A stretch of DNA of 36,660 bases from an uncultured Spartobacteria bacterium (lineage in GTDB: Bacteria > Verrucomicrobiota > Verrucomicrobiia > Chthoniobacterales > UBA6821): the NCBI GenBank assembly GCA_903933015.1, contig CAIZIQ010000335.1:1-36660 (forward strand). Direction: 5' to 3'. This document shows positions 13,401-32,724 of this stretch, one piece after another. How positions within the stretch are numbered: the first letter of the stretch is position 1; every line of letters begins with the position of its first letter. The translations under genes and the position numbers were made by a program. The notes below the pieces were generated by a model. It searched no databases and was not told where the DNA came from. It worked only from the letters and a program-made list of their open reading frames with translations.

Positions 13401-13421
13401 GTATTCCAAAGGTTTTTTAGC

Positions 13422-13456
13422 CTTTCACTTTCCACTTTTCACCATTCACTTTACCC
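13422..13456 (+). repeat. Heptamer-periodic pyrimidine-rich array upstream of map (element A)
   Basis: CTTTCAC TTTCCAC TTTTCAC CATTCAC TTTACCC then ATG of map at 13457: five consecutive 7-nt units abutting the start codon. Confidence 0.75.
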
Positions 13457-26674: not shown

Positions 26675-26768
26675 GAAAAGTGGAAGTGAGAGTTGAAAGG
26701 TGTATCCGTGCCGTTGGACTACCACCTTTTCTTGAGTTCCAGATGAATCCCTTTAGCCTTTCTCCCTT
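26675..26768. repeat. Heptamer-periodic intergenic element with inverted arms, U32-proS gap (element C)
   Basis: Left arm GGAAAAGTGGAAGTGAGAGTTGAAAGGTG (reverse complement CACCTTTCAACTCTCACTTCCACTTTTCC, same motif family as element A). Right pyrimidine-rich tract runs to the proS ATG. 7-bp inverted repeat AAAGGTG (26696-26702) / CACCTTT (26723-26729). Confidence 0.5.
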
Positions 26769-30363: not shown

Positions 30364-31629
30364 TCAGCCGATCTGCGCCGCTCCGAAGTAGGGCTGTAAT
30401 GGCTCGGGAAGGATCAGCGGGCCCCCGGGCTTGGTGTGGGTTTCGAGCAATGCCACATAGAGTCGGGGAAGGGCGGTTCCGGAACCATTCAGCGTATGGC
30501 AGAATTGGTTTTTTCCCTCGGCGTTACGGTAGCGGAGATTCATCCGTCTTGCCTGATAGTCTCCGAAGTGAGAACAACTCGAGACTTCCAAGTAGCCTCC
30601 TTGGCCCGGGGCCCAGACCTCGAGATCGTAGGTTCGGGAGGATGAGAACCCGATGTCCCCGGTGCAGAGTTCAAGCACACGGTAGGGAAGTTGCAGTAGT
30701 TGGAGCACCTTCTCAGCATCGGCGGTTAGTGATTCCAGTTCGGCCTCCGCCTGTTGCGGAGTGGTGATCTTGACCAGTTCCACCTTGTCGAACTGGTGCA
30801 TTCGGATCATTCCGCGCGTCTCGCGTCCAGCGGATCCTGCTTCGCGACGGAAGCAGGGGGTGCAGGCAGTGTATTTTAGCGGGAGCTCTGATTCGGCAAC
30901 GATCTCATCGCGGCGGATATTGGTGAGGGAAACCTCGGCGGTCGGTGTCAGGAACGCCGCACCCCCGTCAAACCCGTACATATCATCCTCAAACTTTGGT
31001 AGCTGGCCAGTTCCCTCCATACACTCACGGCGCACCAGCACCGGGGGAGCGATCTCCGTATAGCCGTGGGCGCGTGTCTGCAGATCCAGTAGGAAATTAA
31101 TGAGTGCACGCTCCAGACGTGCGCCGGCACCGGTGAAGAGCATATAGCCACTGCCACTGATCTTCGCGGCACGCTCCAGATCGAAGAGGCCGAGTCTTTC
31201 CCCGATCGACACATGATCCTCCGGATTCATAGGAGCAGGTTCCCCCCAGTGGCGGATCGCCACATTGGCATCGGCATCCTGTCCCTCGGGCAGTCCAGGC
31301 GCCGGGAGATTTGGTACGCGCAATAGCAGATCGCGCTGCTCGGCGTCCAGCTCTGCCGCAGTGCGGCCGAGTTCCTCCATCTCCGTGGCAAAACCCCTTA
31401 CCTTGGCTTCCAGATCCGAGGAGTCTCCTCCCGACTTCTTGATGATGCCGATTTCCTTGCTCAGGCGATTGCGTTCTGCCCGCAGATGCTGGACACGTGT
31501 CTCGCTCTCGCGCCGGCGGGCATCGCAGGCAAGGATCTGGTCGACAAGATCAGAGTACTGGCCGGAACGCATGGCGAGGCGGGCCTTTACGGCGGTCGCA
31601 TCCTCGCGGAGGAGTCGAATATCGAGCAT
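30364..31629 (-). CDS. serS: Serine--tRNA ligase
   Basis: MLDIRLLREDATAVKARLAMR...TGQLPKFEDDMYGFDGGAAFLTPTAEVSLTNIRRDEI...ACTPCFRREAGSAGRETRGMIRMHQFDKVELVKI...LCTGDIGFSSSRTYDLEVWAPGQGGYLEVSSCSHFGDYQARRMNLRYR. Confidence 0.98.
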   Translation of the reverse strand: MLDIRLLREDATAVKARLAMRSGQYSDLVDQILACDARRRESETRVQHLRAERNRLSKEIGIIKKSGGDSSDLEAKVRGFATEMEELGRTAAELDAEQRDLLLRVPNLPAPGLPEGQDADANVAIRHWGEPAPMNPEDHVSIGERLGLFDLERAAKISGSGYMLFTGAGARLERALINFLLDLQTRAHGYTEIAPPVLVRRECMEGTGQLPKFEDDMYGFDGGAAFLTPTAEVSLTNIRRDEIVAESELPLKYTACTPCFRREAGSAGRETRGMIRMHQFDKVELVKITTPQQAEAELESLTADAEKVLQLLQLPYRVLELCTGDIGFSSSRTYDLEVWAPGQGGYLEVSSCSHFGDYQARRMNLRYRNAEGKNQFCHTLNGSGTALPRLYVALLETHTKPGGPLILPEPLQPYFGAAQIG

Positions 31630-31767
31630 CTAAAAAGTGAAAAGTGAAAAGTGACGGGTGAAAAGACGAATCAGAAGACTCTTGGGGGACTGTATCCAAA
31701 TTCAGAATCCTTTTTTACCTTCAGACTTTCACTTTCAGACTTTCACTTTTAACTTTTCCTTATTCCC
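31630..31767. repeat. Bidirectional heptamer-periodic element between divergent serS and dnaJ (element B)
   Basis: Read toward serS: TTTTCAC CCGTCAC TTTTCAC TTTTCAC TTTTTAG then ATG. Toward dnaJ: CTTCAGA CTTTCAC TTTCAGA CTTTCAC TTTTAAC TTTTCCT TATTCCC then ATG. Perfect 10-bp inverted repeat AAAAGTGAAA (31633-31642) / TTTCACTTTT (31741-31750). Confidence 0.8.
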
Positions 31768-32724
31768 ATGGCTGCACAGTTCCGAGATTACTACGAGACC
31801 CTTGGCGTCGCCAAGGGTGCCTCTGCCGACGATATCAAGAGCGCTTTCCGCAAGCTTGCCCGGAAGCATCACCCCGACCTTGCCAAGGACAAGAAGGCTG
31901 CGGAGGAGAAGTTCAAGGAGATCAACGAGGCCTACGAGGTTCTCAGCGACCCCGAGAAGCGCAAGAAATACGACGAATACGGCGCCAACTGGCAGCACGC
32001 CGGAAATGGCTTCCCCGGTGGAGGAGGAGGACGCAGCAGAGCAGGTGGTGCCGGAGGTTTTGGGGGCTACGGGGAAGGTGATGCCTCGGATTTCCATTTC
32101 GGAGGCACCGGCTACAGTGATTTCTTCGAGCAGTTCTTCGGCACCCGTCGCGGTCGCGGCTACGGTGGCGGGGGCGGAGGTGTCGAGTTCGAGGAGACAC
32201 CCCAGAGGGGAAGGGATGTCGAGGCCGATATTCTGGTCACCCTGGAGGAAGTGCTCAACGGGGCCACGCGCCAAATCTCCTTCCGCAAGGGGAACTCCCC
32301 CGAGATCCAGACCTACACCGTCAAGATCCCCAAGGGCGTCCGCGAGAGTCAGCGCATCAGGCTTGCCGGCCAGGGAGGATCAGGTGGGGCCCGTGGAGAG
32401 GCTGGAGACCTCTACCTTCGAGTGAAACTCCAACAGCATCCCGACTACCGCTTCGAGGGAGTGGATATCTATCATGAGGTCGATGTGCCCGCATGGCAGG
32501 CTGTCCTCGGGGGTGAACTCACTATCCCGACACCCGACGGTCGTGCCAAGCTGAAGATCCCGGCGGGTACCCAGAACGGGAAAAAGTTCCGCATCCCTGG
32601 ACGTGGTCTTCCAGAAAAGGGGGGAGGGCGCGGCGATTACTACGCACTGATAGAGATTGCTATTCCCGAAACCATCACCCCGGAGCAGAAAGCTCTTTGG
32701 GAGCAGATTGCAGCTTTGGGCTAA
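31768..32724 (+). CDS. DnaJ family chaperone without zinc finger (CbpA-type)
   Basis: [69 protein letters not shown] (HPD), Gly-rich linker, and C-terminal substrate-binding domain ([23 protein letters not shown]...). No CxxCxGxG repeats. Confidence 0.95.

Follow-up and report, generated by a model that had tools for sequence, protein, structure and literature searches.

Heptameric intergenic repeats before start codons in freshwater Spartobacteria, with unit turnover at a fixed site

Background

Heptameric intergenic repeats are already known from cyanobacteria, Beggiatoaceae and Xanthomonas; they have been observed in several phyla, with no function assigned. Direct repeats of the heptamer TAACTGA, described in Beggiatoaceae, cyanobacteria and Bacteroidetes, are located mostly just before the start codons of genes that for the most part have no ribosome binding site, and S1, Csp and Csr have been proposed as their binders (MacGregor 2015, PMC4679880). 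The arrays described here share with these repeats the tandem arrangement of heptamers outside genes, the proximity to starts and the association with genes devoid of a Shine-Dalgarno (SD) sequence. However, the TAACTGA repeats have one favoured unit, with related heptamers seldom repeated, whereas here many units occur and are replaced at a fixed site. TAACTGA itself is not among the array units found here, which comprise many sequences per genome, including TTTTCAC, TTTCAGG, TTTCAGC and GCCTTCA.

The GGGAATC and GGGGA(C/T)T heptameric repeats of Xanthomonas and Nostoc (Rehm 2015, PMC4692102) show the same polarity at gene edges and the same avoidance of divergent spacers and, in Xanthomonas, also occur as inverted pairs (PMC4692102). 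Their unit is fixed and contains G-tracts that fold as G-quadruplexes, whereas the units described here are variable and lack a G-tract, those of the window having at most one G run of one on the purine strand (GTGAAAA, GTCTGAAAGTGAAA). The STRR heptanucleotide repeats of cyanobacteria such as Calothrix PCC 7601 (cited in PMC4692102) are, so far as they are portrayed there, tandem heptamers outside genes as well, with several units per genome and no assigned function; three units are named for cyanobacteria in that account, compared with many here. The STRR-type properties found in the present genomes are tandem 7-nt units in several copies and dispersal over many intergenic sites. To our knowledge, positional conservation combined with unit turnover has not been documented for STRR sequences.

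The open-licence literature, whose coverage leaves out most subscription journals, contains no report of such arrays for the lineage considered here. New features are the presence of many units in one genome, the exchange of one unit for another at a fixed site while the period stays, and the association of heptamer arrays with open leaders in an SD-scarce genus. The arrays may bear on how start codons are chosen in SD-scarce bacteria.

Sequences and gene calls

The window, that is, the whole stretch of DNA that was analysed, is contig C335 (36,660 nt), which belongs to a 2.33-Mb freshwater Spartobacteria (Chthoniobacterales) MAG, and its nearest named relatives are uncultured freshwater Spartobacteria / Chthoniobacterales MAGs with a serS identity of 87–94%. 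The statistics cover about 1.06 Mb from the genus and 1.1 Mb of control loci, together with 0.49 Mb of the genome G043, which belongs to another family of the order. Gene calling relied on a purpose-trained dicodon model, which sensibly recovered the ribosomal-protein operon and other window genes; every start codon is a prediction. A gene edge was counted as array-bearing at 14/21 lag-7 matches, a cut-off set by hand, and the unit names of the serS leaders were given by eye.

Heptamer arrays in the serS-dnaJ spacer

The original prediction described a bidirectional 7-nt-periodic array that fills the spacer between the divergent genes serS and dnaJ. The features of this spacer and of two other leaders in the window are as follows.

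13423..13456, plus strand: further array before map, TTTCAC TTTCCAC TTTTCAC CATTCAC TTTACCC, then ATG
26675..26768, plus strand: weak relative before proS, with purine-rich repeats past the upstream stop codon and a pyrimidine-rich end before ATG
30364..31629, minus strand: serS, seryl-tRNA synthetase (open reading frame and relatives at 85–94% identity)
31630..31665, minus strand: serS-side heptamer array, in mRNA sense TTTTCAC CCGTCAC TTTTCAC TTTTCAC TTTTTAG, then ATG
31666..31718, no strand: non-periodic middle of the divergent spacer, about 53 nt
31719..31767, plus strand: dnaJ-side array, doublet CTTCAGA CTTTCAC (14-nt unit) twice, TTTTAAC TTTTCCT TATTCCC, then ATG
31768..32724, plus strand: dnaJ-type co-chaperone with a J domain (open reading frame and relatives)

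The heptamers as originally quoted, and their phase with both ATG codons, are correct in the sequence, and the periodicity lies above that of dinucleotide shuffles: identity at lag 7 is 59/131 over 31630–31767 versus 34.0±5.4 in 5000 shuffles (p=2e-4) and, for the serS arm alone, 21/29 versus 10.2±2.6 (p=2e-4). TRF reports period 7 at 31633–31665 in the serS arm and period 14 (2x7), with a 100% match, at 31720–31749 in the dnaJ arm. The dnaJ side thus carries an array, but not the simple run of consecutive heptamers that had been proposed, since its true unit is the 14-nt CTTCAGA CTTTCAC, its best lag is 14, and lag 7 reaches only p=0.033. Nor is the whole spacer filled: both arms are arrays, but the middle of about 53 nt has no period. 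This middle probably holds promoter DNA, although none was recognised; a scan of the spacer with consensus models found no sigma-70-type promoter and no intrinsic terminator. A comparison of the whole window with Rfam gave no family match at the gathering threshold, and a known structured RNA was rejected on this ground.

The array before map is also clear (lag-7 identity 20/31 versus 9.9±2.6 over 13419–13456, p=2e-4), and the proS spacer falls short of significance (p=0.066). The unit dialect of the dnaJ array resembles that of serS, its divergent neighbour. The divergent serS-dnaJ neighbourhood (window; L214, L219–L221) is common to G000, G005, G008, G013 and G015; wherever both genes were located in another genome of the genus, they are far apart or on separate contigs.

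A genome-wide class of intergenic repeats

The heptameric intergenic repeat is a genome-wide class in the genus, not a local peculiarity. About 119 kb of non-coding genus DNA contains 35, 32, 17 and 10 tandem arrays of period 7, 8, 9 and 14, respectively, versus 4, 6, 2 and 5 in about 135 kb of non-coding DNA from other Verrucomicrobia. Intergenic arrays, mostly of period 7–9, are about sevenfold to tenfold commoner in the genus than in other Verrucomicrobia, with a density that is inflated where contigs had been picked for TTTTCAC matches, as were several of G002, G004 and G012 and the first ones of G043. Within genes, periods of 9, 12 and 15 are favoured.

In G043 the density is higher still: 31 kb of non-coding DNA on contigs taken regardless of arrays contains 35 period-7 arrays, and units such as TAGCAAA, GTAATCA, TAGGAGC and GTGAAAG occur side by side, at times as nested inverted pairs. 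Its spacers at L173–L192 and L277–L296 are crowded with heptamer and octamer arrays built of many different units, often in inverted pairs, and a nested example is found at L180:11657–11928, where inner TAGGAGC arms lie within outer GTAATCA-like arms. Across the phylum, a TTTTCAC array with one mismatch allowed is present in 13/388 genomes, a patchy distribution obtained with a search that is blind to other units. TTTTCAC arrays recur in the distant phylum members G285, G144, G158 and G120 (loci L257–L276), most sampled genomes having none; G285 has about 195 overlapping TTTTCAC matches in 3.7 Mb.

Unit turnover at serS and at other orthologues

At serS, period and composition persist while the sequence turns over. 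Lag 7 is the best of lags 5–9 in the 42 nt before ATG in 16/16 genus genomes, and the leaders of these genomes contain at least five different unit sequences. The sister genomes G004 and G007 (support 99/100) differ in their units, TTTTCAC versus TTTCAGG; G003 and G014 have the unit CTCGNCT in common, and the leaders of the TTTTCAC group consist of 4 or 5 whole units. Among 13 dnaJ orthologues, only that of the window genome has a clear array, which replaces a TTGTCA-N17-ATTAG-like promoter retained in most of the others. The proS array is confined to the window genome as well, and related leaders precede map in about 10/16 genomes, as judged by eye.

The description of the element as a slippage-renewed heptameric intergenic repeat is well supported. 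A slippage-prone repeat of the STRR kind had been among the original suggestions, and it agrees with the many units, the 4 or 5 copies at serS, the turnover of units and the match in kind to known heptameric repeats. The 16 congeneric serS leaders constitute a natural experiment in which sequence, period and composition are separated, and they allow the leader hypothesis to be put to a direct test with reporters; should the arrays be neutral, the leaders would document concerted tandem-repeat turnover at one fixed site.

Position and polarity at gene edges

A genome scan shows that arrays are enriched at start edges, in line with the placement before start codons on which the original prediction depended, and 26/66 of the start-edge TRF arrays end at most 10 nt from the start. 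In the genus, 38/244 co-directional start edges (15.6%) bear an array versus 9/174 divergent ones (5.2%, p=0.0008). G014:C1 alone, which, like the second G043 set, was not picked by TTTTCAC matches, gives 16/83 versus 1/58 (p=0.001). Arrays are therefore under-represented in divergent spacers and serS-dnaJ is a less usual setting, so that the bidirectional arrangement, although real here in that both arms are arrays, is atypical.

Genus start edges with a clear bias are pyrimidine-rich in mRNA sense in a ratio of 47:0 when orthologues are counted more than once and of 36:0 when loci taken for serS are set aside. Stop edges in the genus have no clear polarity by this measure (10:9), although the TRF arrays at stop edges were polarised (21:6). 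In G043 the ratio is 22:1 at start edges and 37:6 at stop edges, with the purine strand leaving the gene; arrays in this genome are equally frequent at stop and start edges and lie further from starts. As the leaders of the lineage are pyrimidine-rich in general, part of the polarity is to be expected.

These data bear directly on the main rival explanation, neutral slippage, according to which replication yields 7- to 9-nt repeats that persist only where a coding frame does not preclude them, the polarity mirrors the purine/pyrimidine skew near gene edges, and the arrays do nothing. The periods of 9, 12 and 15 within genes and of 7–9 outside them, the free variation of units, the fluctuating copy number at serS and the general pyrimidine richness of leaders are all compatible with this explanation, and heptamers are over-represented in many bacteria, for which polymerase slippage has been proposed (PMC4692102). 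Yet the persistence of an array beside the serS ATG in every one of the 16 genomes despite unit replacement, the threefold bias toward co-directional over divergent starts and the 47:0 polarity speak against it. We consider neutrality a serious possibility, albeit a doubtful one.

Promoter-like signals near the arrays

The frequency of the motif TANNNT before the predicted starts of the genus sample has peaks at -15 and at -12. Of the serS leaders, 10/16 have a TANNNT box at -12/-13, immediately below the array; these are the 10/10 leaders that are not built of TTTTCAC. The peaks are in frame with ATG, and upstream stop codons may contribute to them; this suggests either transcripts that are leaderless or have a very short leader, or a -10 box that incorporates a stop codon. 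Were the boxes genuine -10 boxes, some of the array sequence would belong to the promoter and would be absent from the leader RNA. A TANNNT box is no commoner at array starts (10/45) than at other starts (59/302), which rules out the arrays as tandem -10 boxes.

A broader promoter reading would have the array serve as -35/spacer-region or upstream-element DNA above a -10 box at -12/-13, with leaderless or short-leader transcripts, and act via spacing or repeated weak contacts with RNA polymerase. The TANNNT peaks, the box in all ten non-TTTTCAC serS leaders and the dnaJ array of the window, which occupies the site of the promoter kept by most relatives, point in this direction. However, arrays are rarer precisely where promoters must be, at divergent starts (9/174 against 38/244 at co-directional ones), the box is not enriched with them, and stop codons may contribute to the in-frame peaks, so that we regard a promoter element as improbable.

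Open leaders and initiation without Shine-Dalgarno pairing

SD-like pentamers are found at 3.5% of long-spacer starts in the genus versus 4.3% at a control position, which amounts to no SD enrichment, even though the 16S end carries the canonical CCTCC in three genomes of the genus. This result agrees with the inclusion of some Verrucomicrobia in the SD-scarce class (PMC10783764). The lack of an obvious SD sequence before serS and dnaJ, remarked upon in the original prediction, is borne out but calls for no explanation of its own, given the lack of SD enrichment throughout the genus. Array leaders have a predicted MFE of -3.3 kcal/mol versus -10.6 kcal/mol for other leaders, a predicted unpaired probability around AUG of 0.80 versus 0.55 and a G content of 6.9% versus 20%. 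Shuffled array leaders fold alike, hence the openness stems from composition alone.

On the basis of sequence data, we infer that the heptamer repeats may be kept as G-poor open leaders for SD-independent initiation, a tentative reading to which we assign slightly less than an even chance. A translation element in the untranslated region had been one of several functions first proposed, and it is the one we favour, given that the arrays are pyrimidine-rich, are predicted to be unstructured, abut the ATG and are biased toward co-directional spacers in a genus where SD sequences are absent. Arrays would arise and be renewed through slippage and homogenisation of tandem units, and those providing an open, pyrimidine-rich stretch ahead of AUG would be retained, presumably because the lineage starts translation without SD pairing. 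In mRNAs that span co-directional spacers, the leader could function as a standby or loading site to which, for instance, ribosomal protein S1 or an OB-fold protein of the cold-shock type would bind. The selected property would be composition and openness, not the exact sequence, and the 7-nt period might come from the mutational process, from a protein footprint of about 7 nt, or from both.

Several observations run counter to the open-leader reading. The TANNNT boxes in ten serS leaders suggest that transcription may begin at or near the ATG, in which case the array would be outside that mRNA; part of the polarity would arise anyway in pyrimidine-rich leaders; the openness follows from composition alone; and in G043 stop edges bear arrays just as often as start edges do, and the arrays lie further from starts. 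It is conceivable, if rather unlikely, that the start signal is set by period and composition and not by sequence, with self-renewing heptamers supplying open pyrimidine-rich leaders and a 7-nt spacing that fits a repeating OB-fold binder (S1/Csp). If so, slippage and selection would hold the spacing and leave the letters free to drift.

Inverted pairs

The complementarity of the two arms, from which a long hairpin had been predicted, is present as a 10-bp inverted repeat (31633–31642 / 31741–31750). However, a 10-bp inverted pair occurs in 164/5000 shuffles (p ~0.03) and the spacer is predicted to fold no more stably than shuffles (z=-0.80 for RNA, -1.00 for DNA), so that a hairpin across the serS-dnaJ spacer is not supported as the key feature here.

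Inverted pairs are a second form of array, located between co-directional and convergent genes. Spacers whose two arms share 8-mers as inverted copies number 33 versus 14.4±3.6 in within-genome permutations for the genus, and 53 versus 11.6±3.3 for G043. The excess resides in co-directional spacers and, for G043, in convergent ones, inverted sharing in that genome being found in 21/52 convergent, 28/139 co-directional and 4/42 divergent spacers; divergent spacers are not significant in either the genus or G043. This class gradient suggests an element, for example a terminator or an insulator, with an effect on transcripts as they leave a gene.

A corresponding explanation is that inverted arrays form a long hairpin, at the level of RNA or DNA, that ends or insulates transcription between genes. 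The excess of inverted 8-mer sharing beyond permutation argues for it; direct 8-mer sharing between arms is not enriched and the controls are not significant. On the other hand, significance is lacking in divergent spacers, the class to which serS-dnaJ belongs, this spacer folds at shuffle level, and many genus arrays have no partner arm, e.g. those before serS in most relatives; we regard this explanation as very improbable. A mobile element with heptamer termini was rejected, as the G043 spacers inspected by eye have no common core between their arms. Inverted intergenic words with longer units occur in several genomes (G014:C1 34652–34856; L176:4306–4601; L180:8741–8906), examples being CGCAGAGGCGCGGAGACGCAGAG ... 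CTCTGCGTCTCTGCGCCTCTGCG and CACAGAGACACAGAG ... CTCTGTGTCTCTGTGGTG.
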